A DNA stretch of 64,000 nt from Heterotrichella gracilis. Lineage: Eukaryota > Sar > Xanthophyceae > Tribonematales > Xanthonemataceae. This document shows, piece after piece, positions 2,461 through 63,972 of the stretch (position 1 is the stretch's first letter; each line of letters starts with the position of its first letter). The stretch covers positions 1-64,000 of the forward strand of contig JAULBX010017748.1 of the NCBI GenBank assembly GCA_032358255.1. The letters run 5' to 3'. Position numbers and translations under genes: made by a program. The notes beneath the pieces were generated by a model that saw nothing but the letters and a program-made list of their open reading frames with translations, was not told where the DNA came from and made no database searches.

Positions 2461-2559
2461 GACAACGCTGCCATCAGGACATTTGATGACGTCTCAACTG
2501 TGGGCTGCTCCCACCCCCCACCTGCACCTGCACCTGCAATTTGGCGTCACAGGATCTGA
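2461..2559 (+). repeat. degenerate copy of the secreted gene's terminal exon
   Basis: About 99 bases closely match the last third of the terminal exon (about 2209-2304), from the GACAAT/GACAAC start through the proline-rich tail to the same ATCTGA stop. The copy carries an extra CCTGCA unit and several substitutions. It has no start codon and no second half of the domain. It is the first of many local same-strand exon-edge copies in this window. Confidence 0.8.
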
Positions 2560-3589
2560 GGTCTAGATGGGTCCACCCCCAGCCTAACAGGAGAAACCTA
2601 GGACATGTCACTGGTGTGTTGCGCCCAAGTATGAATTCCAGGGATTCAATGGTTATGTGCCGACGCATTGGGCCCTCGCACTGGAATTTGCAGGTTGCGG
2701 GGAATACACATTAAACAACAGATGTCCCTCAGGCATGGTTGTGTGAACATTGGGTTATCCCACGCCCATCTGCCAGGGCACGTAGCAACACAAAAATAAT
2801 GTGTTGACATTTTATGGCGCCCACCATGTTATGTCACTTATAAGGGGCGGTTGTAGAATATTATGTCACGTATTTCGAGTTGAGTTCAGGCCTGCTGGAT
2901 TTTGGGAGTCACTCATCATTGATAGCTGACTCTTTGTGCTACTTGAAGATTGTTGGTTGACATCATGTATCCTGCGTTTTATTGCATCTGGCATTTTGGG
3001 CATCTGGCCATTTTCGGCTTTTCACATAACAGACACGCCGTTATTGATATACATCTGTACAGTTTATCTCACCCAGGCACCTCGTACGTTTGCAGAAAGA
3101 CTTACTCGATTAAGGGTATATGTGTTGCCATTGCTGTTGTTGGGTCTTGACACTCTGCATCTTTGAAAACAGTTTTGCATGCATGTCATGAGACATCACA
3201 ACACGCCTGACACAGGCCACATTCAACGCGTATACCACCACTCAGCACTCCGACTTGCAGCCTTAACGCTGAAGCAAGTTGCAGCAGGTCAGCTGGCAGA
3301 GTCCAGGTGGGTTTTGGGTGCAAAGCAACTACGCCTGGGTATGACCATATATGCATGCATTGCAGTGCAACTTCAGCCGCTTGTAGACGGCGGTATAGAC
3401 AACCCTTGATGCAGTGCAACTTGTGTGCACATCAAATTATGTCTGCTTTTAGCTTTGCATCGGAATAATACCTCCAACGGTAACGGTGCAACTGTATAGG
3501 GTCACTCAAGATACCAGGCGCTGAGTCCTGCACTTGGATAGTGCTTGAAAGCTTCAACACCACTCATCTTGCATCAGTCAGGAGGTGCC
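2560..3589. other. intergenic region upstream of F-box copy 1
   Basis: No supported gene. The stretch 3225-3312 (CAACGCGTATA ... GCAGAGTCCAGGTGGGT) recurs in diverged form at 7797-7892 upstream of F-box copy 3, so the duplication unit included upstream sequence. An ATATGCATGCATTGCAG block lies at about 3349-3364. Confidence 0.5.
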
Positions 3590-4870
3590 ATGGCCAGCAG
3601 CAGCAGCAGCCCAGCGGTGCTAGACCAGCAGTGCGACGGGTGTCCCATACACTCCCTCCCGGACGACATGCTGCAGCGCATCTTTGAGTTGCTACCCTTC
3701 GAGCTGTGGCTACATCGCGGACGCATATTGCGCAGGAGGTTCTACAAAGCAGGGCTGCAGGTGGTCTGCAAGCGTTGGCGCCAGGCCCTTGCGGGTCCAC
3801 GCATGGCATGGGCAGACGTGGAGTGCCCTCTGGGCTCAAGCAAGTCCTTTCTGCCATGGCTGTACCCCAGGCTTGCAGCAACCAGGTCCATCAGTCGTCT
3901 GCAAGGGGAGCCACAGGACTTGCTGCGGGTGCTCAACAACGTCAACCCGTCGTTCCTCACTTTTCTTACTTTTCATAACCCAAAAGACGTGTACCACGGG
4001 GACAGTGCTGGGCAGCTGCTAGACGCCACCTTCCGCCTGACGTCCCTGACTTCCTTGGATCTGCACCTGCGCTGCACCCCGGAGGCGCCATGCCTGCTAG
4101 CCATGGCAGCAATGGTCCATCTACGGAGACTTGACCTTGCTTTGGAGAACCCAGATCCCAGTACCCAGCAGGTGTGGCCACAGCTTCCATGCCTTCCAAA
4201 GCTTCGGCATGCAAAATGGGCAATGAACGGGGCAGACTACGTTCCTATGCTATCCAAGCAACCCAAGCTGACCAGGTTGGACCTACATGAGGGCGTGTAT
4301 TCAGGCGGGGGAGTGGGCGTCAGCGCCTGCTTGCGCCAGCTCACGCAGCTGAGGGAATTGCGCGTAGAATGCTATCAAATGGACATACCGCCTGCCTGCT
4401 TCCCAATGTCACTGGAAAATCTTCAAATTATTTGTGCGGATATGGCTGTTGACTGCATGGCGCTTCTCCCAGACCTCGCCCACTTGACTTTGCTTCTCCT
4501 GGATGGAGGAGGCATACAGCGCTTGACCCCTGCCTTGGCCAGCCTCACCAACCTCCAGAAGCTGATTTTGTGTTATTTGGAGGAGCCGCTGGTGCTGCCT
4601 GCCATGCCCAGCCTCACAACGCTCACGCCAGTGTGTATGGCCAGCGTGCAGCTGCAGGTGCCCATCAACCCCGAGCTGCGCCTGCGGTGGTGGTCCAGTG
4701 CAGCACCACATGACGGGGTGGTTGTCATCAAGGGCCGGCACGGCACGTACACCATGGGATTGGACGAGGATGATTGTATTGTGGTGACCGCGGCACAGCG
4801 GCTAAATCCCGGATATACCCCACTTGATGATGATTGGGTGCATAAGGCGAGGGAGGAGAGGGAGCAGTGA
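3590..4870 (+). CDS. F-box/LRR protein, copy 1
   Basis: A single open exon of 426 aa. The F-box is near the N-terminus (CPIHSLPDDMLQRIFELLPF, then a VCKRWRQAL helix). Leucine-rich repeat segments follow (LDLHLRC, LRRLDLALE, LTRLDLHEG, LRELRVECY, LQNL-type units), ending in an acidic family tail (GLDEDDCIVVTAAQRL). F-box proteins of this layout normally recruit substrates to an SCF ubiquitin ligase through Skp1; the substrate is unknown. The start at 3590 was chosen because GGTGCCATGGCCAGC and the MASSSSSP N-terminus recur in the paralogues; an in-frame ATG at 3545 would add 15 residues. The tail is shorter than in the paralogues, stopping after REEREQ and lacking the usual WVGWLHTAA end. Confidence 0.85.
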   Translation: MASSSSSPAVLDQQCDGCPIHSLPDDMLQRIFELLPFELWLHRGRILRRRFYKAGLQVVCKRWRQALAGPRMAWADVECPLGSSKSFLPWLYPRLAATRSISRLQGEPQDLLRVLNNVNPSFLTFLTFHNPKDVYHGDSAGQLLDATFRLTSLTSLDLHLRCTPEAPCLLAMAAMVHLRRLDLALENPDPSTQQVWPQLPCLPKLRHAKWAMNGADYVPMLSKQPKLTRLDLHEGVYSGGGVGVSACLRQLTQLRELRVECYQMDIPPACFPMSLENLQIICADMAVDCMALLPDLAHLTLLLLDGGGIQRLTPALASLTNLQKLILCYLEEPLVLPAMPSLTTLTPVCMASVQLQVPINPELRLRWWSSAAPHDGVVVIKGRHGTYTMGLDEDDCIVVTAAQRLNPGYTPLDDDWVHKAREEREQ

Positions 4871-5979
4871 ACTACTTGGCTGCATGCCGTTGCAGTATCA
4901 CGCAGCCACGAGTGATTGATTGGGGTGAATGGATTGCTTTGTTTTGGACTCCCAAACGCCTCCTGACACACAGCTGATGTGCCGCACCATCGGCTGGTCA
5001 CATGCAATGAGCGTACTACAAGCAGCCCATGCACATTTGTATTAGTATACTCACTGGAGAAACAACCGCCTCCGCTAGATGCTATTGTGTAACTATTATA
5101 CGCCGCTGGTCATGTGCGGCTGGTCAGTGGTTGTGAGGCAATGACCATCGGCTACCCAGACCACTTAGAGTAGTGGCTATTCCCCCCGATTTCCACACTG
5201 GTTTTTAAGTACACAGTCACCAGTACTTGTGATATACACTTATGTATAGCGCAAATTGCAACAAAATTTAATGGACTTTCATCAAATAGACAACGCCATA
5301 AAATTATATACATATATGGCATAAGCAACTCAGGCCCTGTTGAAAGACCTTACACATATTAAAATGGTTGCCAGTGACTTGCCAGGAGTAAAACTATGAT
5401 GCAGCAACACTATTGCAGTTGCAGTGCAGTCACTGACTGGGTGGTCAGCTGATGCAGCAAACACTGGCGACTATTTTATTAATAAATGATGATACATATG
5501 AGTTCAATAACCCTAGCGGTCCGAACAACATGACCAAACACCACAAAAGGTATCACACGCTCTTTAACACGCGCATACTATCACCTCCAACACCGGAACG
5601 CAGATGTAAGTTGCGATAACAGAACAGGTGTCAGGTGGGTGGCTACATATATGCTGTATGCATGCATGCCTGGTCATGTACGCATGCAACGCTAGGAAAG
5701 TGTGTCGCAACTTGCTTGTGTCCCTTTGAGCCTGGAAACAGTCAAACTCTGGTAACAGGGCAGTTTGTGTACGTTCTTCAAGATATCCGAAGCTTTAAAC
5801 CGTATTTGACTGGTTATCACCCAGTTCATACCTGATTTCATATACCACCCATTGTGCTACCAAAGTCCACACTCTGTAAAGTGTTTGCCACTCAACTCTC
5901 TCTCCCACCTGTTGTACAGACCTACGCTGTACCCATCTCACCGAGCAACAGTCAGCAGCGAGCAACAGTCAGCAGTGCC
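4871..5979. other. intergenic between F-box copies 1 and 2
   Basis: No gene recognised. It holds an AT-rich part (5200-5560), then a TGCATGCATGC block near 5657-5667. Just before copy 2 is a pyrimidine-rich stretch ending in TTGTACAG (5911-5918) that matches the same position before copy 3 and looks like a splice acceptor of a 5' UTR intron. Confidence 0.4.
5088..5092 (+). terminator. candidate TGTAA polyadenylation signal
   Basis: TGTAA, the usual chlorophyte poly(A) signal, lies about 218 bases past the stop of F-box copy 1. A five-base motif occurs often by chance, so this is only a candidate. Confidence 0.3.
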
Positions 5980-7356
5980 ATGGCCAGCAGCAGCAGCAGT
6001 CCTGCTGTGGTAGACCAGCAGGAGGAAGGGTGCCCTATACACTCCCTGCCAGACGACCTGCTGCAGCGCATATTTGGGGAAGTACTCTTCGAGCAATGGA
6101 CAGGCGCCCCACGCAAGAGGCGCAGGCCTTTTCATAAAGCAGAGCTGCAGCTGGTATGCAAGCGCTGGCGCCAGGCCCTCGTGGGCCCAAGTGAGGCGTG
6201 GGCAGAAGTGCAGAACGATCGCGATTACTCCAGTCGCCCTGGCTTCCTGGGCTGGCTGTGCCCCAGGCTGGGAGCAACCAGGTACCTCCGATGTTGGGAT
6301 GGGGAGCCAGAGGACAAGCTGCTGGTGCTCAACAGCCTCAACCCATCTTGTCTAACTTCACTCGCTCTCCACTACGTACAAATGCGGGTTCACCATGGCG
6401 ACAGTGTGGGTCAGCTGCTCGAGGCCACCTTGCAACTGCGCCTAATTTGTCCACTGGAGCACGTGGCACCCTTCATGCCAGCCATGTCAGCAGTGGTCAA
6501 CCTAGAGCGGTTAAAGCTGGATGCTCAAAACCCATGGCCTCAAACAGGGCCCAGGTCCCGAAACTGGTGGCCGGAACTTCCATGCCTCCGCAGGCTTTCC
6601 GAAGCAGTGGTGGTGGTAAACGGGGTAGCTGTAGACTACGTTCCAATGCTGACCAACCAGCCGGCGCTGACCAGCTTGTGTATATCTGAGAGGAAGCCTG
6701 GAGGCGTGGAAGGGTTCGTCAGCACCTCCTTGCGGCAGCTCACCCAGCTGAAACGCGTGCACGTGAATTGTAGCTACATGACTATCCCGCCTGGCTGCGA
6801 GACAATACGAGACCTTGACATTTACTATTCAGGGGAGATGGCTGTTGATTGCATGGCGCTCCTCCCAGACCTCACCCACCTCATGTCGCCTGCCTTAGAG
6901 ACTAGAGGCGCACAAGGGTTGCAACCTGCCCTGGCCAGCCTTACCAACCTTCAGGAGCTGAGCGTAGCCTGGATTCAGGAGCCACTGGTGCTTCCGGTCA
7001 TGCCCAGCCTCACACTGCTCAAGGCATGGTGTGTGTGCAGTGTGCAGTTGCATGTGCCCATCAACCCCAACCTTAACCTGAGGAAGTGGGCCAGTGAAGC
7101 CCCACAAGACATGGTGGTTGGGATAAAGGGGCTGTACGGCATGTACAGCATGGGCGTGGGTGAAGCTGACCGGGTTTTGGTGACTGCAACACAGAGTCTC
7201 CCCCCCGGGGACACTCGTGCCCAATGGGATGAGTGGGTGCGCGAGGCGAAGGAGGAGCGGGAGCACTGGATTGGGTGGCTGCACACCGCCGCAAAATTGC
7301 GTGCAGGTTCATACAACATGGGGCATAACTGCCGGTGTTATCTTGGGTTAACATAA
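5980..7356 (+). CDS. F-box/LRR protein, copy 2
   Basis: A single open exon of 458 aa, colinear with copy 1. It has the MASSSSSPAVVDQQ N-terminus, F-box (CPIHSLPDDLLQRIFGEVLF and VCKRWRQALVGPSEAW), LRR-like units (RLKLDAQNP, LTSLCISER, LKRVHVNC, DLDIYYSG) and the family tail ending REHWIGWLHTAAK. The start at 5980 aligns with the conserved family start; the frame is open upstream to 5854. The predicted role is SCF substrate receptor in cytosol or nucleus. The LRR part has diverged more from the other copies than the F-box and tail have. TGTAA at 7526-7530 is a candidate poly(A) signal. Confidence 0.85.
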   Translation: MASSSSSPAVVDQQEEGCPIHSLPDDLLQRIFGEVLFEQWTGAPRKRRRPFHKAELQLVCKRWRQALVGPSEAWAEVQNDRDYSSRPGFLGWLCPRLGATRYLRCWDGEPEDKLLVLNSLNPSCLTSLALHYVQMRVHHGDSVGQLLEATLQLRLICPLEHVAPFMPAMSAVVNLERLKLDAQNPWPQTGPRSRNWWPELPCLRRLSEAVVVVNGVAVDYVPMLTNQPALTSLCISERKPGGVEGFVSTSLRQLTQLKRVHVNCSYMTIPPGCETIRDLDIYYSGEMAVDCMALLPDLTHLMSPALETRGAQGLQPALASLTNLQELSVAWIQEPLVLPVMPSLTLLKAWCVCSVQLHVPINPNLNLRKWASEAPQDMVVGIKGLYGMYSMGVGEADRVLVTATQSLPPGDTRAQWDEWVREAKEEREHWIGWLHTAAKLRAGSYNMGHNCRCYLGLT

Positions 7357-8223
7357 CATATCTGCTGTGCCAAGCAACTTGCACAATCAGGCCAGGCTCA
7401 AGGTTTGTTGCTCACTGTCACGCGAGTTTGTATACGGTATTTAGGCCCTTCTAACAGAAGTCATCACAAATACATACACAAATACATACACAAATAGATC
7501 TGCCTTGGGTGGCTCACTATTGAACTGTAACAAATGCTAATTGAGGGAACTAATGGCCACTACTGCTTTGGTTGACTGAAATTCGTTCCCTTTTAACAAA
7601 GTGATATCATTATTTATTCGCCATACCATAATAATATACAGTTACCGATAACCTGCCTTGGCAAGAGTAAGGCAACTTTGCTAAAGACCAAAGGGAACTA
7701 CCCTGAGCACTACTGCCATCAAAACAAAGGCCAACATTCTCGAACCTGCATCCTGCGTGCTGCACTTCCGAAAGCACTAGCATTTATAGCCAGTTGCAAC
7801 GCGTATATCATCACCTTCCAGCACTCAGCTTTGAAGCCAAGCGCTGGAGGAACTTGCAGCAGGTCAGCTGTCGTGGCAGAGTCCAGGTGGGTGGCAAAGC
7901 CGTATGCATGCATGCATGGCCTACATGCATGCATTGCAGTTAACGTGTGTAAATAGCACTTGCAACCTTTTCAGCCTGGCAACACTCAAAACCCGATCTT
8001 AACAGGGCAGCGCGTGTAAGTAACAGGGCAGTGCGTATAGGTTGGCAAGATACCTGCTCTGACGGCCCATTTAGGTGAACCCTCTTAACCAGCTGACACT
8101 ACCCTGTGCTGAAGTTCATATTTGAAGTTTCCAATGCGCCTGTGCTTGCCGTTCACTCCCTGTCTCCCATCTGTTGTACAGATCTTCAGCACCCAGCTCA
8201 GCAGTGAACAGTCAGGAGGTGCC
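7357..8223. other. intergenic between F-box copies 2 and 3
   Basis: No gene recognised. 7797-7892 is homologous to 3225-3312 (upstream of copy 1), and a dense run of TGCATGCA units covers about 7902-7938. A CTGTTGTACAG acceptor-like site about 45 bases before the copy 3 start matches the one before copy 2. Confidence 0.5.
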
Positions 8224-9602
8224 ATGGCCAGCATCAGCAGCAGCTCAGCTGTGCTCGACGGGTGTCCCATACACTCCCTCCCAGACGACCTGCTGCAGCG
8301 CATCTTAGGGCAAGTGCCCTTCGCGCACACTAATTTTCTTACCGGAAAGCCCTGGACAAAATTCAGAGCAGAGCTGCAGCTGGTGTGCAAGCGCTGGCGC
8401 CACGCCCAAGTGAGGCTTGGGCAGAAGTGGGGAGCAATTACTTTAGCTGGCCTGGCTCCTGGAATGGCTATGCCCCAGGCTGGGAGCAACCAAGCACGCC
8501 AAAGGGCTGCCACCCAAGCCAGAGGACGTGCTGCGGGTGCTCAACATCCTCAACCCGTCTTGCCTCAAGTCACTCACAGTTCCCTCCCTGAACCACGGGG
8601 ACAGTGCCGGCCAGCTGCTTGAGGCCACCTTCCGCCTCACCTCCCTGCGCTCCTTGGAACTGTGCCTGCGCTGCTCCCCGGAGCAGGTGGCGCCCTGTAT
8701 GCCAGCACTGGCAGCACTGGTCAACCTGGAGAGGCTCTATAGACGTCAATAATGCACAATCCACTGGCCAGCACTGGTGGCCAGAGCTTCCCTGCCTTCC
8801 CAAGCTGTGCAGCATGACAGTGGTGGTAAACGGGGTAGACTATGTCCCAATGCTGGCCAACCAGCGTGCAGTGACCAGCTTAGAACTATGGGACTCCCCG
8901 ACGGTCGCACTGGCCCCCACTGGCCGCACTGGCCCCCACCTCGATTTCAACGGGGGGGTGGGTGTCAGCACCTCCTTGTGGCAGCTCACTCAGCTGAAGA
9001 GCTTACGTGTGGCCTGTAACCAGATGGGTATATCGCCTGCCTGCTTCCCCACGTCACTCCAATACCTGAACATCTGCTGTGGGGGGCATGCCACGCATGT
9101 TGACTGCATGGCGCTGCTCCCAGACCTCACCCACCTGACGTCGCTTGTCCTCGAGGCTGGAGATGTACAGGGCTTGGCCCCTGCCCTGGCCAGCCTCACC
9201 AACCTCCAGGAGCTGAGCATGTTCTGGCTTGAGCAGTCGCTGGTGCTGCCGGTCATGCCCAGCCTCACAGCGCTCAGTGTACGTCGTGGAAGCAGCGTGC
9301 AGCTGCAGGTGCCCATCAACCCCAAGCTGCGCCTATCGGAGTGGTCCAGTTACGCCCCACACGACAGTGTGCTTAGCATCAAGGGGGTGCACGGCACGTA
9401 CAGCCTGAGCGTGGATAAGGACAACTTTCCTGTTGTGACGGCGTCAAAGCGCCTGCACCACCAGTACATGAGGAGTCCGCCAGATGCTGAATGGGTGCGT
9501 GAGGGGAGGGAGGAGTGCGAGCACTGGGTGATGTGGCTGCATACAGCCACGGCGTCGTGCAGCAGATGGGAACAAATTTTGATGCTCCGGAAAGGTGTTT
9601 GA
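8224..9602 (+). pseudogene. F-box/LRR copy 3, frameshifted
   Basis: Homology to copies 1 and 2 runs end to end: MASISSSSAVLDG start at 8224, F-box, WWPELPCLPKL, LQVPINPKLRL, and a tail ending in HWVMWLHTA. The frame changes at least three times. A deletion of about 10 bases right after VCKRWRH (near 8405) moves PSEAWAEV to a second frame. A further shift near 8480 puts KPEDVLRVLN in a third. Another near 8740 moves on to STGQHWWPELP, open to 9602. No clean GT-AG intron explains these, so I call it a recently decayed gene. If the shifts are assembly errors it would be an intact sixth paralogue. Confidence 0.75.
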
Positions 9603-10312: not shown

Positions 10313-13300
10313 TCACTTCAGCCTGACCAGCACCTGGTCGGCAGCCACCACCTGCCCCTCCTCAGCCTCCACACACCCCACCTCCCCCCCCACCTCCGCC
10401 CGCAGCACGTTCCTCATCTTCATGGCCTCCACCACAGCCACCTCCTCCCCCGCCTCCACCCACTGCCCGGAGGCCACCCGCAGGGAGATGAGGGTGCCGG
10501 GCATGGGGGACTGGATCACCTGCGGGGGTGGGGGTGGATGGTTGACCTCAGTGGGGTGAGGGAGGGTATGCGTATGGTAGATGGGGGCACGACGCAGGCA
10601 GGGGATTGGGTGTCTTGTATGAGTGTGTGGGAGTGGGTAGGGGCAAGGGTGTGCAAGGATATCAGAATGTGTGCAAAGTGGTTCCTAGTTGCAGGGCGAC
10701 ATGCGCGAGCAACATGCGCCATATGTGCCACACATTTAATGAAGCCAAATGACGCAGAGCGACAGCAACAGATCTTGAATCACCCCTCCTACCCATCCTA
10801 CAGGATGAATCCGGATGGCGCAGCCTGTGCAACCATGTTCCTAAACCCTAAAGTATAAAACCCTAAACCACTACCCGCTGCTCTATACCCTTAGTTGAAC
10901 TATACCCTCTCCCCAGCCACCCCCCACCTTGCTGGTATCCACCATGACCGGTGGCGGCATGTGCGCAGCCAGGCGCGCACCCACAGGCGAATCCACCACC
11001 ACCTCCCGCTGCGCGCCACAGTACTGCACCACCCAACCCCGGGGGAGGCGCCGCATGATCTGCACATACCGCTCCCCACCATCCACGGTCACAGCCACCA
11101 GCTCCGCCACGTGGCTGGTGGGGGGTGGGGGGTGGCGGGGGGCGATGTAGATCATGCGGGTGGGCAGCTGGACCTCCAGGGTGCCTGGTGGGGGGTGTTG
11201 TGGGAGTTAGGGTGAAGCGGCCACGCAGGGTGAATGGGGGGGAACAAGGTGGTGGGGTTTGGAGACCACTGGCCCACAATTCAACACTGGCATTGCAAGT
11301 TCACACTATTACTTCTGGCTTCAGGATCTGAATTCGAAACACTGTGGTATGAGACACAGATGGCCTGTACTGGAATATTGGAGGGAATATGCGGACCTGT
11401 GCGCCGATGAACACCAGTGTCCCCACTAGCACCTAAGTACGCGCCATCAGCAGGTGATAACATGCAACTACTTTTGATTAAATGAGGGGGTCCTCACCAT
11501 GCGCCACCCCCTCCGCCCCCACCATGGCTGGTGCTGCAGGGCGCACAGTGGCGGGGGTGGGCCGGCCCCCCACGCTCACCACCACCTCCACCTCCCGCTC
11601 CACATGCTGCTTGCCTGCGGGTGGGTGGGTGGGTGGAGACAAACTCTTGGCTAGGGTTTTACAGTGGTGCGTGGATGTTGTTGTGGACCTGGGTTGCTTC
11701 CAATTGGAATGTGTTAGCCTTGAGGATCTCCATCGGAAGGTGCCGCACATGAGTACCAGGATCTGCCTCAAGCAGCGAACGCTACAGAGCAGAACGATCA
11801 CTGGTTGAAGCAGATCCTGTCACTCACGAGCCGAGCCTTTGGGCAGAGATCTTCAAGGCCATTGCCTGTGGTGACATGTCACATTGGTTGGAGCCCATAG
11901 CTGTGCATACTCATTTTGGCAGCTAGAGAGCACTGCCCCGCCACCCGCCACCACCACCACCAGCAGCAGCATGGCTGTGGCTGTGGCTGTGGCTGTGGCT
12001 GTGGCTGTGGCTTTGGTCCTTGCTGGCAATATCGCTGTCACTGCCATCACCATCACAGCCACACCCATAAACCCTCGCAGCGTTTTCCCCACAACCCCAC
12101 CCAACTCACCTCACTCCCCAACACCCACCAGCTTGGCCTGGCCTCCCCGGGTCACATGCATCATGGCCACCACCACCACCACCACCACCACCACCACCAA
12201 CAACAACAACACCGACTCATGGATGTGGCTGCGGTCTCCTGCCAATATCCACTGCCACCCCCATCACCCACCCCCCAACCCCTTACCTGCCAGCCTGGCC
12301 TCCCTAGTCACATGCATCATGGCCCCCAGCGCCACCACCTCCTCCTCCTGACCCTGGCTTAGGGCAAGGTTGAGGGGGTGCATGGAGGCGTGGGTGGGGT
12401 AGTGCTCGCTGTGGTAGGCGGTGGAGATGTCGCCAGCCTGTGGGGGTGGGGGGTGGGTCATGAACCCTTACAAGGGTTGAGAAGGTGCATGGTGGCAGGG
12501 CGCAGTGGGATAACAGCGCACAGGGGCTATGATGATCATTGTAATTACCTTTCGCCTCGTAATTGTCCTTATCATTGTTATTCTGGGTAAGGTATTCTAA
12601 ACTTTAGAATACCTTAATGAATCGGATTTAATCAGATGATGATGATGATTTATTCCCCCCTACCTGGAAGTCGTCCTCCACCACCACATGCCTGAGCAGG
12701 CAGGTGTTGTTGGCAGGCCCCCGGATGACATATGCATCCAATGAAAATGCTAGTGATTATCATGAAATGGCATTATGATCACAGGATCAAGATAATGACA
12801 ATGACTTGATTGCAATACATTTCTGAGTCCGGTTACAACCAGTCCCACCTGGAAGTCGTCCTCCACCACCACATGCCTGAGCAGGCAGGTGTTGTTGGCA
12901 GGCCCGCGAATGACGTAGGCATCCAATGCGCTGCACATGGCGGCTATGGCGGCGGGGCGGGTGGGTGCGTGGGTGACCAGCTTGCTGATCAGGGGGTCAT
13001 AATAGATGGAGATGGTGGAGCCTGGGGAGGAAATGGTGAAGTGGCGTGTTGGGTGGACCGGGATGTGCGTGTGGTGTGGGGCTGTGGTGTGTTGCTGGCC
13101 ATGCTCCCTTTGACGGATTTTATACGTACACGACACACGTACACCATTTACATCCTTGCACAAAGTGCAAATGCTACTCAGATTTAATAAAGGAAATTAT
13201 TGAAGGGGACGGGAGCACAATAAATTGGTGCATATACTATGTAATGTCATAACGATACACTATGGTGTGTACAGTACCATTAACACCGGGATCCATTACA

Positions 13301-33961: not shown

Positions 33962-34170
33962 ACTGCGGAGCCAAAGATCAGCCGCTGAGCTGGCGATGGC
34001 TGTGGCTCCCTCGTTCCCCTCCCAATCTTGTCATCTCACCGATCCCCCTTGCCATCACATGCACACCATCCCCACCCCCCATTGCCAGTAAACTTCCCAC
34101 ACCTATTCCTTCGCCAGCATGTATTGCAGCAGGCATTCTGCTGCGACCACACCAATCCCCCTTGCGATCG
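33962..34170 (-). repeat. echoes of the 5-oxoprolinase terminal exon
   Basis: 33975-34015 (CAGCCGCTGAGCTGGCGATG) repeats 34385-34420, and 34110-34155 (GTATTGCAGCAGG) repeats 34300-34345. Together they are a decayed copy of the last exon beyond its stop codon. The rest of 33587-34286 has no recognised gene. Confidence 0.75.
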
Positions 34171-51149: not shown

Positions 51150-52583
51150 TCAGCGTTGGCGTGACCCTGCGGCGGTGTGCAGCCACCCAACCCACTGCTC
51201 CCGCTCCTCCCTGGCCCCGCGCAGCCAGCCAAGACCTGGCGCATCGTACACGTACGGCAGGCGCTGCGATGCATTCACCACAATGTGGTTGTCCTCATCC
51301 ACGCCCAGGGTGTACACGCCATGCTGCCCCTCGATCACAATCACCTCCTCAAGCAGGTGACCACCATGGTCACCACGCGCTGACCAGCCCAACAGGTTGA
51401 GGTTGGGGTTGGTGGGCAGCTGCAGCTGCACACTGAGTACATTGCACGCCGAGAGGCATGTGAGGTTGGGCATGGGGGGCAGCACCAGCGCCTCCTCGAG
51501 CGAGTACACGCTCAGCTGCTGGAGACTTGCGAGGCTGGCCAGGGCAGGCGAGAATGCCTCCACATATCTAGCCGTCACGAAGAGGGAAGTCAGGTGGACG
51601 AGGTCTGGGAGAAGCGCCATGGCATCTATGACCAGGGAAGAGCTGCACTCGATGTTGAGGTGTCTGAGTGACGTGGGGAGGCAGCCAGGCGGTGTAGCCA
51701 TGCTGGAGCACACCAGGCTCACGCTCTTCAGCTGAGTGAGCTGCCGCAGTGAGGCGCTGACACCCACTCCCGCAACAGCTAAATACGAGTTCTCCCTTAC
51801 TTCCAAGAAAGACAGCGCAGGCTGGTTGGCCAGCATCGACCCATAGTCTGCCCCGTTTGGCACCACTTTTGCGCCGCAAAGCTTGGGAAGGACGGGAAGC
51901 TCTGGCCACCAGTGCTGGGTACCGGGCTGTGGGCTCCTCACATCAATCTCGAGCTTCTCCAGGTTGACCATTGCTGCCATGGCTGGCATGAAGGGCGCCA
52001 CCTGCTCTGGGGTGCAGCGCAAGCGCAGCTGCAAGGTAGTGAGTAAGGCAAGGCGGAATGTGGCCTCAAGCAGCTGCCCCACACTGTCCCCGTGGTATGG
52101 AGTCTCCGAGTCAACACCCCCGCTGTAAGGCTCAAACCCCATTTCGAGCGAGGCGAGCCGAGAGGGGTTGAGGCTGTTGAATATTCGCAGCACGTCCTCT
52201 GGCTTGTCTGGTGTGTAGTTTGGGAATCGGACGGACGTGGTTGCTCCCAGCCTGGGGCATAGCCAGTCCAGGAAGCCAGCCCGACTCGCGTGCCCACACC
52301 ACATGCGCGGCCATGCCTCGCTTAGTCCCGCCAGGGCCAGGCGCCAGCGCTTGCACACCTGCGCCAGCTCTGCTTTGTAGACTTCCCTTCTCGCCCGCAC
52401 TTGACGGAACGCGTTTTGCAAGTCCGAGAGTCTGCTGTCGTGCGGGGGCGGGTCTCTTTGCCATGAGAAGGTCAGCGTCCCAAATATGCGCTGCAGCAGG
52501 TCGTCCGGCAGGGAGTGGATGTGGCACCTGCTGCTGTCCCCTTGGTCTACCACTGCTGCTGTGCTGGGGCTGGGGCTGGCCAT
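51150..52583 (-). CDS. F-box/LRR protein, copy 5
   Basis: A single open exon of 477 aa from the family start at 52583 (MASPSPSTAAVVDQ); an in-frame ATG at 52604 would add seven residues. The F-box is CHIHSLPDDLLQRIFGTLTF with VCKRWRLALAGLSEAW. An extra basic stretch (FRQVRARREVYKAEL) lies between the two halves. LRR units (LTTLQLRLRC, LEKLEIDVRSP, LSFLEVREN, LKSVSLVCS, LRHLNIECS, LTSLFVTAR) and the tail TLGVDEDNHIVVNASQRL and EREQWVGWLHTAAG follow. It is intact and closest to copies 4 and 6 by N-terminus and tail. Confidence 0.87.
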   Translation of the reverse strand: MASPSPSTAAVVDQGDSSRCHIHSLPDDLLQRIFGTLTFSWQRDPPPHDSRLSDLQNAFRQVRARREVYKAELAQVCKRWRLALAGLSEAWPRMWCGHASRAGFLDWLCPRLGATTSVRFPNYTPDKPEDVLRIFNSLNPSRLASLEMGFEPYSGGVDSETPYHGDSVGQLLEATFRLALLTTLQLRLRCTPEQVAPFMPAMAAMVNLEKLEIDVRSPQPGTQHWWPELPVLPKLCGAKVVPNGADYGSMLANQPALSFLEVRENSYLAVAGVGVSASLRQLTQLKSVSLVCSSMATPPGCLPTSLRHLNIECSSSLVIDAMALLPDLVHLTSLFVTARYVEAFSPALASLASLQQLSVYSLEEALVLPPMPNLTCLSACNVLSVQLQLPTNPNLNLLGWSARGDHGGHLLEEVIVIEGQHGVYTLGVDEDNHIVVNASQRLPYVYDAPGLGWLRGAREEREQWVGWLHTAAGSRQR

Positions 52584-54241
52584 GGCACCTGCTGACTGTT
52601 GCATGCTGAGTGTGCTGGGTCCACGAGGTCTGCATAGCAGTGGGAGAGGGCAGCTTCAACGGCATGAAGGGGAATAGTATAAAACGAAGGCGCTCACAGG
52701 TGAACCTAAAGGTGGAGCCCACGGCTCAGCTGCTACCGTGGATCACAACACAGCACAGAGCATGCATCGGTTTAGGGTCATTGGGGGAACATGTCCAACA
52801 GGAAGCCCGTATGGCGAGAAAGCACAACTTTTTATAGCAATAGAGTGGCAGTGGTGGGTTGCGAATAAGCTGGTTGTGCCGATTGACTGGTAGTTTGCCA
52901 AGGAAACCTGAAGGAGATGCAACTAGAAGCTTACGTGGGAAGCAAGTAAAATGACCGGAGAAGTCTGGCGAAGTGGGTGCTGCAACATGAGAGGGAAAAT
53001 ATGACGAACTGAGCCTTCGCTGGACTGTCAACGTGCGCTGTTAGCAACGGAAGACCGAGGGTTGCAATGCATGCATGCCAGATGCCTCTCAAAGACTGGT
53101 CTGTACGACTCCAACCGCTGACAGACAGCGGTATCTACCGAATTTTACCTGCTGGCCATAAATCAAATTTCTGCCAAGTTAGGTCTGCGCAAAACACAGT
53201 TAGACCCCTGCTTGCACACCCGTTGATCTCTCCTCATCGATGCAGTGACATGGCCTACCTGTGACTATGCAAATGCTGACCTGCAGTTTGCTTCGCCGCT
53301 GCACCTTGACACCTGATAGTACTGAAGGTACAAAGTGTTGCAAACTAGGTGAAGATGGACGCCATATATATCACTTGGCAGTGCCAGTGGACACCCAGGG
53401 AAACGGTGCTGCCAGTCTTCCCGCCAGAATGTGCAGTGTTGACAGCAACTTGCTTCGCTACTGCAGCTTGAAACACTGGTGTGTTGTCTCAAAGGCTGGT
53501 GTAATGCAATGCAATAAGGTGGAGACGCGTGCAAAAGTGGTCAACGGCAGACTAAAAGCATCCCCTTGTGAGGTTGAACATACCAGCGCTCCCGGGGATG
53601 GCTATGGCGCTGCCGCCCCTTTAATATTCCTTCCTTCCTTCCAGCGCTGTGTAGGGTTTAGGGTGTTTAAACATGTTACCATGGTCATGGCCACCGGTAG
53701 GTTAGGCCAGTGAGTGCACCTTATTGACCCCATATTGAGATGGCTGATCACAAGTGGACGCAGAACATCCATTGTTTGCAGCGGCGCTTCTCTTGCAGGG
53801 CTAAAAAATAGTTTAATATTATTAAATAACAGACGTTAATCGGCCATGTGAGGACGGTTATCACTGGCATCAACAACACTTCCACTGGCAGGCAACGGAT
53901 GCCATACCAGATCTGCAGGCTTTCTTACCCTGATGCATAATTGTTTTGCACAATTTCTTGGCTACCATGAACTTATGCGAACAGAATACGAGGTCCTGAA
54001 ACGGGGTGGTGCCGGCAGTGCAGCCTGTGCAGAGAAACGAGGAACACAGCAGTCCAATCTGTTACACCCTTTCCCTAAAAAACAACATTCTCTCCTTTCC
54101 CAGGCAGAAGTGCAAGGATCGCTGGCACTTGATACTGTCGCGGATAGTTCATAAAACTGTAGAAACTATTGCATAAGCTGCAAACTCGAGTATTGTTGTT
54201 CACCCCCACCTAAAAAAGGTTGTCGCTACTTGGGTCAGTGC
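52584..54241. other. intergenic between F-box copies 5 and 6
   Basis: No gene recognised. An ATGCATGCATGCC block lies near 53066-53078, about 480 bases upstream of copy 5. A GCTATGCAG acceptor-like site lies about 50 bases before its start. Short frames here show no domain. Confidence 0.4.
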
Positions 54242-56273
54242 TCAAGGTTTGGGCTTGCGCGCTCCAGCGGCGGTGTGCAGCCAGCCAACCCACCGCTCCC
54301 GTTCCTCCCCCGCCCCACGCACCCACTCCCCATCTGGCGGAGCGTACTCATAAGGCAGGCGCTGCGCCGCATCCACCACCACACCATCATCCTCATCCAC
54401 GCCCAGGGTGTACGTGCCATACCCCCCCTTGACCACAATTACCTTGTGGTACACGGGTGGCTCCGGTGCCATCCAATAAGCCAAATCCCCAGTAGGGTCT
54501 GGCGTGCCCAGGACCCACTCTGACATGCGCAGCTTGGGGTTGATGGGAAGCTGCAGCTGCGCAGGATGCATGTACCATGCGCCAAGCAGTGTGAGGCTGG
54601 GCATGGGGGGGAGGACCAGCGGCTCCTTCAGGTGGGGAGACGCGCAGCTCCTGCGGGTGGGCGGGGCCTGGTTAGGGTTTGGGGTTTAGGGTTTTGGCAC
54701 CAGGCACCAGCGGCTCCTTTGGGTGCGAAATAGCAGCTCCTGCGGATGGGCGGTGCCTGGTAAGGCTTTAGGGTTTGGGTTTTGGCAGCAGGCTCTCAGA
54801 ACCCTGCAGGCTGGTGAGGGTTTAGGGTTTGGGCAGCAGACGCTCAGCACAGCACCTGAACAACGGTGGTACCATTATGCATTTCAGGATTAAAAGCAGG
54901 AGATGCTGAGACGTGTAGGCATACAAGCGAGTGATCAGGGTTTGATTTAGGGTTTGGGTACAGACGCTGTTCACCTGAAGACTGGTAAGCCCAGCCAGCA
55001 CCAGCGGCTCTGTTATGCAGGAGAGGTTCAGCTTTTGGAGGTTGGTGAGGCCGGCTAGGGCGGGGCCTACGTGCTGTATCCATTGCCCCACCAAATCAAG
55101 CGCCGTCAGGTGGACGAGGTCTGGGAGGAAGGCCATGGCGTCAATCACCCCTTCGTTGCAGATGTAGAGGTCTTGCAGTGATGGAGGGAAGCTGCTCGGT
55201 AATCGGGTAGAAAAGGTGCTTTCCACGTAGACCTCCCTGAGGTGAGTGAGTATTTAATTGTTAGTCCAATGATGCGACTTACCGCACTAATGCTGTACCC
55301 TTTTCTTTTAGTAGTAGTATATAGTCATAGAAAAACCTTCAAAAATATGCCATGAATAAGACAAATATCTGTTTATTGCAAAAATATTTAGACATGACCC
55401 CCCTCAATATAATTTAGAAACCTTCAATATTTTTTACCTGAGGCGGGTGAGCTGGCGCAAGGAGATGCCAGCGCCTGGATCCCGCTCCTCCGAGCTCCCT
55501 CTGAGCACTTGCAAGCACGTCAGCGCAGGCTGGTTGGCCAGCATCGACCCATAGTCTGCCCTGTTTGCCACCACGGTTACCTCACACAGCTTGGGAAGGA
55601 CGGGCAGCTCTGGCCACCAGTGCTGGGTGCTCGGCGGTGGGCTCTTGACATCAATCTGAAGCCACTCCAGGTTGACCAGCGCTGCCATGGCTGGCATGAA
55701 GGGCGCCGCCTGCTCCGGGGTGCACCGCAGGCGCAGCTGCAGTGAAACTAGGGAGGTGAGGCAGAAGGTGGCCTCAAGCAGCTGACCCACATTATCCGCC
55801 CTGTAGGCACCCGACTCATACGGGTGACCATTCCCCTCCTGGAGGAGTGCAGTGAGGCAGGATGGGCTGAGGCTGTTGAGCACCCGCAGCAAGTCCTCTG
55901 GCTCCCCTTGCAGGTATTCGATGGACTTGGTTGCTGCAAGCCTGGGGCACAGCCAGTCAAGGAACTGGCTGCTGGTCCGCCCAAAACACACCTCTGCCCA
56001 GGCCCCGCTTGGACCCGCCAGGGCGTGGCGCCAGCGCCTGCACACCTGCGCCAGCTCTGCCTTGTAAAGGGACCTCTTAGGCCCACGACGGTGCCTGAGC
56101 GGGTGGCCTAAGGGCACGAGGGGCGTGTAGCTCTCATTGCACCTCAGGACCTCCCAATCGAAGGGAAGCTCCCCAAAGATGCGCTGCAGGAGGTCGTCTG
56201 GGAGGGAGTGGATGGGGCACCTGCTGCTCCCCGGGATCCCCACGCCTGCTGTGCTGGGGCTGGGGCTGGCCAT
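54242..56273 (-). CDS. F-box/LRR protein, copy 6, intron-containing or decaying
   Basis: Proposed exons: 55438-56273, 54975-55236 and about 54242-54625. The first encodes MASPSPSTAG, the F-box (CPIHSLPDDLLQRIFGELPF, VCRRWRHALAGPSGAW) and LRR start. The second continues exactly where paralogues do (LTRLREVYV ... LTNLQKLNL). The third gives MPSLTLLG, LQLPINPKLRM and the tail LGVDEDDGVVVDAAQRL to WVGWLHTAAG. The first intron (about 200 AT-rich bases) is clean GT-AG. The second junction is poor: EPLVL is present on both sides and the acceptor is unclear, and two decayed copies of that edge lie at about 54612-54760. It is either a paralogue that gained introns or a gene broken by insertions. Confidence 0.6.
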
Positions 56274-56342
56274 GTAAACCTGCTGAATGCTGTATTTTGA
56301 GCTGGGTGCTGGAGGTCTGTGAGGCAGTGTGGGAGTGTAGCT

Positions 56343-56450
56343 TCAGTGGTGACCCTGGTCTAGCACCGCTCCTGTGCTGGGGCTACTGGTACTGGCCAAG
56401 GCACCTGTTGACTGCTGCATGCTGAGCGTGCTGTGGGTGCTGGAGGTCTG
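56343..56450 (-). pseudogene. 5' remnant of another F-box paralogue
   Basis: In minus sense this matches the 5' UTR and first about 20 codons of copies 5 and 6 (ACCTCCAGCACCCACAGCAC..., then a start-like region reading MQQSTGALASTSSPSTGAVL). The family ATG is changed to TTG in this copy (ALASTS for AMASPS), and no F-box follows. Copy 6 begins just downstream, so this is a leftover of tandem duplication. Confidence 0.7.
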
Positions 56451-58164
56451 CGAGACAGTGGGGGAGTCGAGACAAGAGCGTAGACCAGTGAAAGGGGAAT
56501 TGTGCCATAGTGGGTCTGGGACTGGGACTGGGTCTGGGACAACAGAGCAGTTTTTGGCACAAAGGTGCTGCAGGTTGAGTAAGACCCGAGTCTTTAAGCA
56601 GAATATCTTGTTCCAAGCTAGATCAGCTGTATCCTGGTCAAACGAGACAGGTCCAGGCACATGCATGCATTAAAATGCATGCTTTAGTGTGCTCTTGGCT
56701 GCTGAAGGCCTGTTCCATCAAAGCTAGCTGCTAGCATGCTTAAAGGACTGAAAAGCACGCCACGTTGCAAACGCATGTACACTTCACACCGTTCAGATGC
56801 AGTTGAGCAGAGACACTCGAGCATGCATGCCGCCACCCACCTGCTCTGCCCTGCTGCATTGTAAAGCTGTGAGTTGGACCTAGGATGCCGATGTAAAGCT
56901 TTGCAATAAGGTGGAGACGATGGTGCACAGCATTGAAGCAAAGCCCCCTAATATCACCGCCCTGGGTAAAAAGGGGTTGGAGCCTCCCGGAGGGTCATGC
57001 ACAGGGTTTGGGGTTTAGGGTTAGATAGCTGGTCAATAATGGCATTGTCCACAGAGAACATGCACTCTTTTGCGCGGCCAGTTATCTTAAAAAAGCAGGC
57101 AATTTCAAGAAAAGCAAAAGGCTAGTCATGACGCGGTGCCAGGCATTTACCAGATCCACACCTGACTTTGAAATTCCACTCTACCCTTGATGTATACATG
57201 TCTTTGAGCTTTCACAAGCTTATGCTGACAGAAACGCTGTCCTAACTCTGGTGGTCCAACCGGCCAATCCTACACGCTAAGGGAGAAAATAAGCTGCACA
57301 TGCTACTCATACACAGTTCAAAACACAAGCTGCAGTCCTGTGACGCAGATGCCTAAGCATATAAAGAAGGCAGTAAAGACAGCAATAGACTGGTGTGCAC
57401 GCGATCGCCGTCACTACACATCGCACAGGACAAATGAAAGAATGTTGCAATACGTTAAAAAAGAATCCGTTTACTACCGTTGTAACAAAGCAGACAGGTA
57501 CTTGGCCATTCTTGTGCGGTTGTTCGATGGCTGTACACCAAATTGCCAGGTATTCCAGAGCATGGGATTGTTGGTTCGAAATGCTAGACCTTTCAAACGC
57601 ACTCAGACATGGCCGGTGCACTGCGCCCATAGATAGCTCATGATATGCCCCCTCCACCCCATCACTCCCATCCCATTCAGCCGCTGCACCACCCTCTTAT
57701 TCACATCCACACCCACCACCTTGCCCGCACCCCCACTCACCAACACCCACCGTGTTTCCCCACAAACCCCTTGTGGCCCCCACGCGCCTGGCTCCCACCA
57801 TTCCCCATCAAACCCCCCGTGCATCCCACCCGCTCACTCCACCCCCGACCCCAGCACCCGCTCTCCCTCCTTGTCCTCTCATAATGTGGGGAATATGTGG
57901 GTGGTAGATGGGAGCGGGGAGCACTCCACCATAGTTGGACCCAGGCACCCCCTGCCCCCTCTCTCCACCCCACCCATGGTGTCCATGAGCCGCTGGGCTA
58001 CCCGGTCATTCACCTCCAGACCCACCACTGTGCGCCCACCACCCTCCATTTGCTGCTCTCCATCCTGGTGCTCTCAATTTTGGGGGAGTAGAAAAAAGAG
58101 GAAATGTGCGAGCAGGGCCGCAGCATGTTGGCAGTGTCCACCCACCCACGCACCACCAGCCTCA
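56451..58164. other. intergenic between F-box remnant and SBNO gene
   Basis: Apart from two echoes of the SBNO terminal exon (57650-58080) no gene is recognised. TGCATGCA-type blocks lie near 56661-56684 and 56820-56830. A TTTAGGG-like tract is at about 57008-57022. Confidence 0.4.
57650..58080 (-). repeat. two echoes of the SBNO terminal exon
   Basis: About 57975-58070 (CCGCTGGGCTACCCGGTCATTCACCTCCAG) and, more decayed, about 57660-57740 (CCGCTGCACCACCCTCTTATTCAC) copy the terminal exon region 58165-58250 downstream of the true stop. Flanking TCCACCC- and CCCATTCC-type stretches are also shared. Confidence 0.8.
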
Positions 58165-61100: not shown

Positions 61101-63972
61101 TGGGCAGGCACTGGGCGGTCATTTATGCGGGATTCCCTTTCGGAGGTGGTAAACATGCAAGGGTTTTGGAGAAAGCGTGGGATCATCTTTATGCGCCTGG
61201 TAGCACCAAAGCAAAAATTTAGACAACGCGTGAGACAACGTCAGACAACGCATGACCCCCGCCCCACTCACCCTCCCCTCTTGCTCCCCTTCTCCAGGAT
61301 CCCCACCGCCAGCAGCCGCATTTTGATGTAGTTGAGGAATCCCAGGCCATCGGGGTTGTCGGTCCCCGGGATGGCGTCCGCTGGCAGGCTGGGGATTGTG
61401 ACACCCGCCAGGGATTCCTGCTCGTACAGTACGCTGTCCAGCACGTATGATAGTGCCTGCTCGCCATACTTGTTGTCCACGTTGAACTCCTGGGGAGCGG
61501 GAGGGTTTTGTAAGGGTTTGTTAGGGTTTGTTTAGGGTTTCTGTGTCGGGGTGTTTGTACGCTGTCCAGCACATATGACAGTGCCTGCTCCCCATACTTG
61601 TCCACCATGTTGAACTCCTGGGAAGCAGGAGGAGTTGGGTTTGGGTTCATTATTACCAAAGAAGAAAGACACAAAGTGCGCTGTTCACGCCACTTCTAGC
61701 GACAATGCCACACAACACCCTGTACCCCTATCAAAATCAGATACCCTAGATCCACAATCCCCACCCACCTGGAGGTCGGTCCCCGCCCCCAGCGCGCGCC
61801 TGTCCCCCTGCAGCACTGCTCCCAGGGACTGCAGGCGCTTGGCAGCAGAAGACGCAAAGCGCGCCTCCCCCCCGCACTTTGTGACGATGATGCGGTAGCA
61901 GGGGGCCGAGGCCTGGTTGGAGCGGTGGGAGCGGCCAAACTGCTGGATGGCCTTCTCGGCAGACCAGGGCAGCTCCAGGGTGAGGTGGCAGCGGCGGCGC
62001 TGGTTGGCAACCCTGCGGTGGGGTTTTTAGGAGGGTTTTGCAAGGGTTTCAGGAGGGTGTGTGGTAGGCAGAAAGCTGCAGAAGATGGCAGTGGCCGCCC
62101 TCTCTGGAATTCTAAACACTATTTAGCTGCAGGGCGCAACACCTAGAAGGCACAGGGCATGCTCAGCCACAAGGGGAGGCAACTACATGATCAAGAGATT
62201 AGGGGGATCCCCTGTATTAGGCATAGGATGGCACCCACCTCCTGTCCGCCTGCAGCGAGATGCCTGTTGACGCCGCGTCCGACAGGATTGCCACCAGCTT
62301 CTTGCCGCTCATGAAGTAGCCCTTCTGGAGCAGGTTCACGCGCTTGCGGGCATCGGCCTGGTGGGGCAGGGAGGGTTACATTAAAGTCATGGGTAGGGTA
62401 CACAAGGGTTCCCCTGGAGCAGGTTCACGCGCTTGCGGGCGTCGGCCTGGTGGGGCAGGGAGGGTTTCATTAGGGTTTCATCAGGGTGCTGGTGAGGATA
62501 GGTGAATTTAGGGTTTGGGTAAAGTTATGGTCCAGACGGGCAGGAGTGCCATCAGTCACTGGGGTGTCACGAGCCCTAACGCCTAAAGCCTAAACCCTAT
62601 AACTTGTCGGTCCACAGCACCTTTGTCGGTGGCGGCATCCTCCTTGACGAACCCTTCCTCCCCGTCACCTCAGCCACCGCCCTGGCAAAGGGTTTTGGCT
62701 AGGGATTTGCCCAGGGTATAGGATGCAGCCTTGCAGGGTTTTGGGGGCCTTACCTCCTGGCAGCGCTCAGTCCACACCACCTTATCAGTGGCGGCGTCCT
62801 TCTTGAGGTACCCCTTCCTCCCCGTCATCTCCGCCACCGCCTCCTCCCCCCCCAGCAGGTTGATCAGCCAGTCCAGTGGGTTGGCGGGCAGCTCCATGGC
62901 GTCGATGAGGCGGAGCAGTGCGCGCCGCACCTTCACCAGCTGGGGGCGGGCCTCAACTGCAAGCGAAAATCAAATTTAAAAGAGGGAATATAATAGAAAG
63001 CAGAAGGAATCCGTAAAATGATAAGAAGGAATCAATATAATGAATAACAAGAAGGATGATTGCATAATGAGACATTTAGATGTCTAATTTCTGAGACAGC
63101 CCCACCATGAGGATATAATATACCACGATCAATTAAACTCCACCTGGCGTCAAAGTTCCCACTCAAAGCTTTCTTAGGGTCCAGTCCAGCCTATTTCCAC
63201 CATGTTTACCTTGCGCCTATGTTTGTGCCATGACCCCTGTAACGCATGCAAGGTGTTTGTGCCATGATGTAGTCATGGCGTGTGCAGGCCGCCGGCGTCC
63301 CCGTCCCTCCCCCTTTTATTTGAATATTTCTCCTTCCCGCACCACCTCCTCTCGCACCTGGCTTCTCCTCCCCTTCCTCCCCATCCCCCCTCTCCACCTC
63401 CTCCTTCCAATCAGCATCTAGCTCTGTGTGCTTGACAGCGTACTGCAGCCCAGGCACAATGGGGCTGCCAGTTGCCTGGGGATAGGGGGGGGGAGGAGGG
63501 GGTCAGGGGCTGGAGCTGAGGGGTGTTGCGATGACAGGGAGGTGGGGATACAAGCACAGCCACATGAAAACATCATGTGCAGATGACAAGAGGGGAGTGG
63601 TGCAGGCACTGCCTGTGATTTTACAACCACGTGATCGCAGAGGCATTGCATAGCAACTTGCGCACCGAGAAATTCAAGTCCGAATATTGTAGAACTAAGT
63701 GGGTAGGAGCGAAGGCAGGAGTTAGGGTATGAGTTGTGGATGCATGGTAGCATACCCCCCTCTTCCCCCTTTCACACCGTCCCCTCCCCTTTCCCCACCT
63801 GCGCCCTCCCCCTGGTGACCCTCCCCCCAGCGGGCCCCCTGTCCTCCACCATGGCAAACTCCCCCGCCTCCTCTGCAATCAGCATATCGTACGCCCCCTG
63901 TGCGTGCGCCACCCGGGCCTGCAGCTGGGTGATGCGCTTGGCGGACAGCAGCTTCTCAGCCTTGCTCAGGGC
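58165..63972 (-). CDS. SBNO: strawberry notch/FORGETTER1-type helicase, 3' part
   Basis: Twelve exons are visible in gene order: 63799-63972, 63358-63475, 62754-62956, 62239-62357, 61769-62012, 61272-61489, 60820-60988, 60417-60564, 59959-60081, 59355-59524, 59071-59135, 58165-58426. All are GT-AG and in phase (670 aa). The 5' half lies beyond 64000. Motifs of the SBNO C-terminal helicase region: [83 protein letters not shown], and the SBNO-specific end [20 protein letters not shown]. Family members are SF2/SNF2-like nuclear coregulators; the Arabidopsis homologue FORGETTER1 sustains stress-gene expression by acting on nucleosomes. Function here is by homology. Confidence 0.93.
59557..59760 (-). 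repeat. two echoes of an SBNO exon edge
   Basis: 59557-59641 (GGTCGGATGAACTTCCTGCG ... GTAGCCTGCGAG) and about 59700-59752 copy 59436-59528, which encodes [16 protein letters not shown] and more, with the CCGCAG-type acceptor. TTTAGGG tracts separate the copies. Confidence 0.9.
60258..60333 (-). repeat. echo of SBNO exon 60417-60564 3' edge
   Basis: CACCTGCTGCCTGCCAGCTTGTTCCATGGTCCAG and following bases repeat 60414-60475 (encoding [18 protein letters not shown] plus donor), in the downstream intron. Confidence 0.9.
61556..61625 (-). repeat. echo of SBNO exon 61272-61489 5' edge
   Basis: It copies 61430-61493 ([14 protein letters not shown] region with acceptor) in the upstream intron, with TTAGGGTTT-type sequence between. 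Confidence 0.92.
62410..62460 (-). repeat. echo of SBNO exon 62239-62357 5' edge
   Basis: CTGGAGCAGGTTCACGCGCT and the following bases to GGTGGGGCAGGGAGGGTT repeat 62325-62376 nearly exactly, including the acceptor tract. Confidence 0.92.
62598..62695 (-). repeat. echo of SBNO exon 62754-62956 3' half
   Basis: GGTCCACAGCACCTTTGTCG ... CCTCAGCCACCGCC is a diverged copy of about 62768-62845 (encoding [20 protein letters not shown]), in the downstream intron. Confidence 0.85.

Follow-up and report, generated by a model that had tools for sequence, protein, structure and literature searches.

Exon-edge copies with telomere-like filler in an algal genome: possible scars of DNA-break repair near splice sites

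The stretch of DNA analysed here (64,000 nucleotides, contig JAULBX010017748.1 of the assembly deposited for Heterotrichella gracilis; hereafter the window) contains exon echoes, that is, copies of the edges of exons that lie in the adjoining intron or past the stop codon. Self-alignment of the window rendered 61 same-strand repeat pairs with a period below 1.5 kb, and nearly all of those that could be assigned lie, by reading of the alignments, at splice sites or stop codons (the pairs at 24173, 54615, 56246 and 57676 were not assigned to exon edges). Each of the 42 aligned pairs across an annotated exon edge is arranged outward, with 22 copies of 3' edges downstream, 20 copies of 5' edges upstream and none reversed. 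Telomere-like DNA, which had gone unnoticed in the first-pass annotation of the window, is present between many of the copies and is the best clue to the mechanism. With slightly better than even confidence, we interpret the echoes as scars of DNA-break repair in which the duplication of an overhang is combined with telomere-like filler near splice sites.

The assembly behind the window comprises 68.5 Mb in 903 contigs. Pairs of the window were compared with a 25-exon model of a 5-oxoprolinase gene and with the exons, recognised with Pfam, of four further genes (mechanosensitive channel, biotin carboxylase, kinase and helicase). Outside the window, chaperonin and HSP70 genes were located by Pfam profiles, and kinesins and class I tRNA synthetases, hand-picked from the profile listings, were added, including 10 regions beyond the first two. 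The total sample consists of 33 regions and 162 kb, with 32 regions, that of 5-oxoprolinase among them, having at least two annotated exons; two bacterial-looking contigs (C180 and C331, GC 0.37-0.38) were removed before analysis. Splice sites outside the 5-oxoprolinase model come from a simple consensus rule or from visual inspection, and aligned pairs are not independent, one array yielding several of them.

The 5-oxoprolinase gene provides the cleanest test case. When the last exon is left aside, three algal homologues align colinearly with the model, except that the latter has a single insertion of about 22 residues, and they contain every echoed exon once. Nine echo families were distinguished by reading in this gene, with copies of 5' edges located upstream (up to five or six copies), copies of 3' edges located downstream, and last-exon copies beyond the stop. 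Unless otherwise stated, the following features were taken from the self-alignment:

34287-47828, minus strand: 5-oxoprolinase gene, 25-exon splice model, with Pfam Hydantoinase A/B pieces.
47828-47754 and 34462-34287, minus strand: first and last exons in the splice model.
45225-46118, minus strand: array in the intron preceding exon 45220-45018, made of at least five copies, one of them partial, of its 5' edge (acceptor and 82 coding bases).
44811-44927, minus strand: 3' edge of exon 45220-45018 (100 coding bases and donor), copied into the intron that follows (91.5% identity).
43146-43223, minus strand: 5' edge of exon 43080-42924, copied once.
41251-41303, minus strand: copy of the 3' edge of exon 41503-41352.
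37556-38087, minus strand: acceptor and 45 coding bases from the 5' edge of exon 37555-37463, in five tandem copies.
37326-37419, minus strand: copy of the 3' edge of exon 37555-37463, in intron DNA rich in TAGGGTTT.
36178-36687, minus strand: 5' edge of exon 36177-35918, copied three times.
35771-35818, minus strand: copy of the 3' edge of exon 36177-35918.
33969-34134, minus strand: two pieces of the last exon, duplicated beyond the stop codon (self-alignment and splice model).

The copy number of the array at 45225-46118 is uncertain, because a run of exactly 100 N (45392-45491), probably a scaffold gap whose true length is uncertain, lies inside it. The protein is 69-72% identical to those of Chlorella, Coccomyxa, Myrmecia and Trebouxia, with 74% for the best match among those listed, and judging from these identities the organism is a Trebouxiophyceae-like green alga.

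Same-orientation copies of exon edges, as claimed in the first-pass annotation, were seen in the five window genes compared, and about 50 copies were counted by reading where more than 40 had been announced; the outward arrangement of the 42 pairs likewise bears out that annotation. Echoes recur in unrelated gene families outside the window, which supports the proposed genome-wide process, at a lower frequency than the "nearly every intron-rich gene" first proposed: 15 of the 32 multi-exon genes carry them (by reading, not scripted), as do 18 of 99 introns bounded by profile matches, plus several in 5-oxoprolinase. F-box genes, which had been thought to be free of echoes, carry exon-edge copies at four of eight loci outside the window (with strand and splice sites determined by eye). 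The identity of the copies ranges from 98% down to barely alignable, consistent with the proposed ongoing birth and decay, although the closest 59-base pair (62325/62414), where a lack of divergence had been claimed, has two mismatches. Introns without copies have a median length of 257 bases, and the 18 with copies measure 273-1916 bases. Another 27 pairs lie clear of all annotated exons, and the ones examined were mostly copies of copies or edges of exons missed by the profiles. Misjoins in the assembly are unlikely as a general cause because most copies differ in substitutions and in flanking DNA; one array does have a scaffold gap.

When duplications were grouped into families, 46 of 49 touched an exon edge, a count made by reading, which includes three families past a stop, two copies wholly within an exon core and one with about 9 exon bases. 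The three remaining families are an intronic duplication (C55:835), a low-complexity one (C85:2974) and an array (C96:1870). The last of these, at L073 1870-2606, is a tandem array of about four units within a tRNA-synthetase gene, and resembles C/D-box snoRNAs in its motifs. To obtain an expected edge share, segments were placed uniformly in echo-free genes (53 introns) by simulation, which gave 38% when the segment was as long as the alignment and 66% when it was as long as the period. The observed share exceeds both (P = 3e-16 and P = 4e-6, respectively), also without the past-stop families (43 of 46; P = 4e-15 and 1e-5). Six pairs that were ambiguous, of low complexity or outside annotated exons had been set aside (C902 881, C902 4281, C189 4349, C134 812, C55 5105 and C56 2594); if all six are counted as non-edge, the shares become 46 of 55 and, without past-stop families, 43 of 52, which are still above 66% (P = 0.003 and 0.006). 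Pure geometry, in a genome with short introns, thus explains part of the edge bias in the simulation, not all of it.

The position at which copies end is also informative. In 18 young families, defined by at least 88% identity, the copy extends 27-100 bases into the exon and only 0-46 bases into the intron, half of them 10 bases or fewer, with a median end 10.5 bases beyond the splice site. The relative position of the end in its allowed range has a mean of 0.225, for which a uniform distribution is rejected (P = 2e-5), and omission of two doubtful boundaries changes these values to 0.243 and P = 1.2e-4. This survey excluded nine of 51 families, one of them young, for want of a usable boundary or because they stopped well ahead of the splice site chosen. 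The clustering of breakpoints at splice sites that the first-pass annotation had suggested testing for is therefore present. In the youngest pairs, C395 (98%) and C56:115 (96%), the copies end abruptly just beyond the splice site and are not plain tandem repeats, because the DNA between them is unrelated to the sequence that follows the second copy; the arrangement is that of a segment S, a filler, and S again.

Exact telomeric heptamers were found in 26 of 48 inter-copy stretches, at a density of 35.6 per kb. Length-matched segments from the introns of echo-free genes gave 4.0 per kb, with a mean of 4.7 and a maximum of 13 positive stretches out of 48 in 2000 resamples. The motif occurs in 20 of 24 introns classed with echoes and in 32 of 99 classed as echo-free, under a rule-based split that misassigned at least one intron (C131 681-946, which does have a copy), and in exon cores at about 0.7 per kb. 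The genome as a whole is dusted with interstitial telomeric repeats: a count that includes overlaps gives 406 + 428 = 834 perfect matches to (TTTAGGG)3, while the reversed control has 0, and most of the first 100 matches listed lie well inside contigs, a few being less than 5 kb from a contig start. Among perfect period-7 arrays of at least 17 bases in the sample, 11 of 19 are telomeric. The array at L097 454-546 has the form S-(TTTAGGG)3-S, with the two copies of S 97% identical and no obvious coding content, and is one apparently noncoding case. Purely intronic or intergenic duplications were otherwise rare, intergenic DNA being hardly sampled; the equal frequency in exon interiors and intergenic DNA that would have spoken against the first-pass proposal was thus not observed.

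These features could be produced in the following way. A staggered break would open near a splice site, and both overhangs would be filled in and joined, so that the DNA lying between the nicks, a segment S of typically 30-100 bases, would be doubled, frequently with telomere-like DNA (TTTAGGG or CCCTAAA) or other filler inserted between the copies to give S-filler-S. If S lay inside an exon, the gene would be broken and the event lost. If S lay across a splice junction, the copy joined to the exon would keep its own splice site, and the filler and the spare copy would become intron; only duplications of the whole junction would preserve the reading frame. The intron would lengthen, the spare exon edge would drift, and whole units might sometimes multiply later as ordinary tandem arrays. 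The outward direction needs no special mechanism, because a tandem duplication spanning a junction must look so if the exon stays open. Telomerase or a telomere-associated primase would be the source of the filler, acting in steps attributable to telomerase and to CST (the telomere fill-in complex), and the preference for splice sites might perhaps arise from G-rich donors and from the C-rich tracts of acceptors, read on the opposite strand, priming telomeric addition. A stronger version, in which telomere-coupled repair prefers splice sites through such priming by G-rich donors and the antisense acceptor strand, and in which it is a major and continuing source of intron growth that turns potentially lethal breaks in exons into spliceable scars, is put forward only tentatively, as we consider it doubtful.

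Several observations weigh against this interpretation. The young family C85:5330 (92.7%) is an exon-interior copy (L072 5371-5411 and 5485-5525, in gene orientation) that halts about 30 bases before the splice site, and it breaks the junction-spanning rule unless part of S was later lost; three older families also fall short, all four stopping 9-30 bases before the chosen splice site, and the four were omitted from the boundary test of young families. The rarity of purely intronic events is left without explanation, as survival does not account for it, and this scarcity suggests, speculatively, a real preference for splice sites, perhaps via the G-rich strand. Many older pairs are indistinguishable from a plain tandem duplication whose intron half has decayed. 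As for the filler, 22 of the 48 inter-copy stretches have no telomeric heptamer. The predicted strand rule, with the G strand after donors and the C strand before acceptors, was examined in a set of 51 families, 15 of which had been added by eye. It held at 16 acceptor fillers (C, 76 and 79; G, 3 and 0) and failed at the donor fillers, 29 in number, where the G counts were 84 and 83 and the C counts 68 and 74. Moreover, the motif may in part be a splicing signal or an older feature, because echo-free introns also carry it with a strand bias, the G strand in the 5' half (64:23) and the C strand in the 3' half (64:11). Finally, when 20 telomeric arrays were chosen regardless of echoes (in list order, passing over overlapping hits, close neighbours and those near contig starts), three, including that of L097, were straddled by a direct repeat, compared with 19 of 400 random stretches (P = 0.08), a control that itself contains echo-rich DNA.

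Ordinary short tandem duplication by slippage, template switching or unequal exchange, occurring at random sites and filtered by selection, is a possible alternative, although we hold it to be rather unlikely. With introns of about 257 bases most survivable events would straddle an edge, and the constrained exon half would remain recognisable longer. Such duplication accounts for the outward rule and for much of the edge bias, up to the 66% reached with period-length units; several arrays are indeed contiguous repeats of whole units, and divergence across 11 echo-echo pairs is lower in the exon part (59/585) than in the intron part (174/746), as is also expected if copies branch off from a coding trunk. 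The observed 46 of 49 is nevertheless above 66% even under the stricter counts, the copies of C395 and C56:115 stop just beyond the splice site with unrelated DNA between them, and the telomeric motifs between copies are left unexplained. These motifs might, on the other hand, have been there beforehand as splicing signals or telo-boxes, with replication stalling or quadruplexes triggering duplications beside splice sites. Their presence and strand bias in the echo-free introns agree with this unlikely reading, yet in L097 and C56:115 the telomeric run is found only between the copies and is not itself duplicated. An introner-like mobile element that inserted at exon edges with long target-site duplications would also leave an S-filler-S arrangement, and is very improbable: the single filler searched genome-wide, the stretch of 74 bases between the copies of the 3' edge of exon 45220-45018, matched only itself, and the inter-copy stretches, of 0 to several hundred bases, share by eye only the telomeric motif.

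It could also be the case that echoes are functional, as decoy or alternative splice sites or in isoform control, and are kept by selection, which seems to us improbable. The ratio of nonsynonymous to synonymous differences between exon and echo, 0.34 over 37 pairs and 0.22 in young pairs, looked like constraint. Under a null model with one constrained exon and one free spare copy, however, the 148.5 synonymous differences out of 311 in the 37 pairs have to be compared with about 42-46% expected after correction for transitions (99 transitions and 75 transversions measured) and for an assumed CpG effect, and the excess fades from P = 0.0002 uncorrected to 0.029 with the measured transition bias and 0.16-0.34 with the CpG effect as well. 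The correction removes the signal overall and not fully in the 16 young pairs, where synonymous changes make up 41 of 70 differences and 38-47% would be expected (P between 0.0003 and 0.034 across mutation models; 0.004-0.034 corrected). Several echoes have lost GT or AG, and about half of the genes have no echoes at all. The echoes thus appear to undergo mostly neutral decay, to a good approximation, and the suggestion of the first-pass annotation that they might feed new exons or alternative splicing is not supported, with no robust constraint over all pairs and an excess remaining in the young ones.

Echoes in the other window genes that were compared, and one at an exon adjoining the kinase-domain frame, are the following:

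18919-19179, plus strand: 5' edge of the mechanosensitive-channel exon that starts at 19237, copied three times.
19572-19651, plus strand: 3' edge of the exon whose end lies near 19436, copied once.
20048-20378, plus strand: 3' edge of the exon that ends at 19926, copied three times.
20477-20678, plus strand: 5' edge of the exon that starts near 20794, copied twice.
21507-21568, plus strand: 3' edge of the exon that ends at 21462, copied once, with filler of the AAACCCTAA type between copies.
22035-22145, plus strand: copy of the end of the last exon, stop included, beyond the stop.
13915-13995, minus strand: copy of the 5' edge of exon 13733-13814, biotin-carboxylase gene.
12659-12743, minus strand: copy of the 3' edge of exon 12844-12928, biotin-carboxylase gene (94%).
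30982-31070, plus strand: copy of the 5' edge of exon 31142-31230, which adjoins the kinase-domain frame, with CCCTAAA filler.
62414-62472, minus strand: copy of the 5' edge of exon 62325-62383, helicase gene (96.6% over 59 bases).

A perfect telomeric array (20284-20312, 4.1 units of TTTAGGG) separates the last two copies at 20048-20378. At 2212-2304 and 2461-2559 there is a copy of the end of an open reading frame, 79% identical, whose alignment halts exactly at the stop codon TGA, a gene-end version of the echo pattern. The window also has clusters of F-box/LRR-like frames at 3542-9599 and 48736-56669, mostly long single frames, and at least 140 F-box matches were found genome-wide. A scan of the window with Rfam rendered no match at gathering thresholds, and a profile search of the assembly found no rbcL. 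Long intronless frames for chaperonin, HSP70 and tRNA synthetase are located on C180, C331, C111 and C68; these frames, together with the low GC measured in C180 and C331, suggest that the four are bacterial contigs in the assembly.

Repair scars of this kind suggest a concrete route by which introns lengthen and gain sequence, through imperfect repair of breaks whose product is rescued by splicing, and tie gene structure to telomere-repair enzymes in a way that can be tested. They also carry a warning, since automatic gene finders may mistake echo edges for exons in such genomes.

The first-pass annotation knew of no described system with this signature, a statement which was too strong: the passages of PMC8355091, PMC7215372 and PMC2246262 available to us already describe tandem duplication at staggered breaks and telomeric insertion with flanking duplication. 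According to those of PMC2246262 and PMC7215372, interstitial telomeric sequences were inserted at double-strand breaks in primates, rodents and horse, some of them with a flanking direct duplication attributed to staggered breaks, and additions of random sequence also occur; a simple duplication is found in a minority (3 of 66 horse loci, plus two complex ones, 6 of 130 in rodents and 4 of 25 in primates). Short perfect telomeric arrays are likewise present at internal sites here, such as that at 20284-20312, and most insertions seem to lack a detectable duplication, as in the mammals covered by those passages, because only 3 of 20 arrays were straddled by a direct repeat. In contrast to the mammalian cases as described there, where a preference for exon edges is not mentioned, hundreds of matches are present in 68 Mb here and the duplications are centred on splice junctions. 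Small tandem duplications also arise in mammalian cells through CST-Pol alpha fill-in at breaks with 3' overhangs, as the abstract and introduction of PMC8355091 report; these are short and tandem like the echoes, and come from staggered breaks and the telomere fill-in machinery, although neither telomeric filler nor a link to splice sites is mentioned in that abstract and introduction, and the enzymes would be at work here only by analogy.

Intron gain by duplication of a proto-splice site, as outlined in the part of PMC4974935 available, similarly involves a duplication within a gene whose extra copy is spliced out. It makes a new intron from exon DNA, whereas here an existing junction would be doubled and an existing intron would grow: the layout expected of it, with the start of the downstream exon at the 5' end of the intron and the end of the upstream exon at the 3' end, was found in none of the 42 pairs, all of which have an existing splice site in or beside the copy. 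Introners, to the extent covered by the corresponding part of PMC9860276, are also genome-wide insertions linked to introns; unlike them, the copied part here is the edge of a host exon, and the one filler searched revealed no multi-copy mobile sequence. Arrays such as that at 37556-38087 have contiguous head-to-tail units like those of minisatellites, which the young pairs with unrelated DNA between copies do not. No title or opening of an abstract among those listed from the open-licence literature describes exon-edge copies with telomeric filler. The components are therefore known from mammals and plants, and what appears to be new is their combination in a genome-wide bias towards exon edges accompanied by intron growth.

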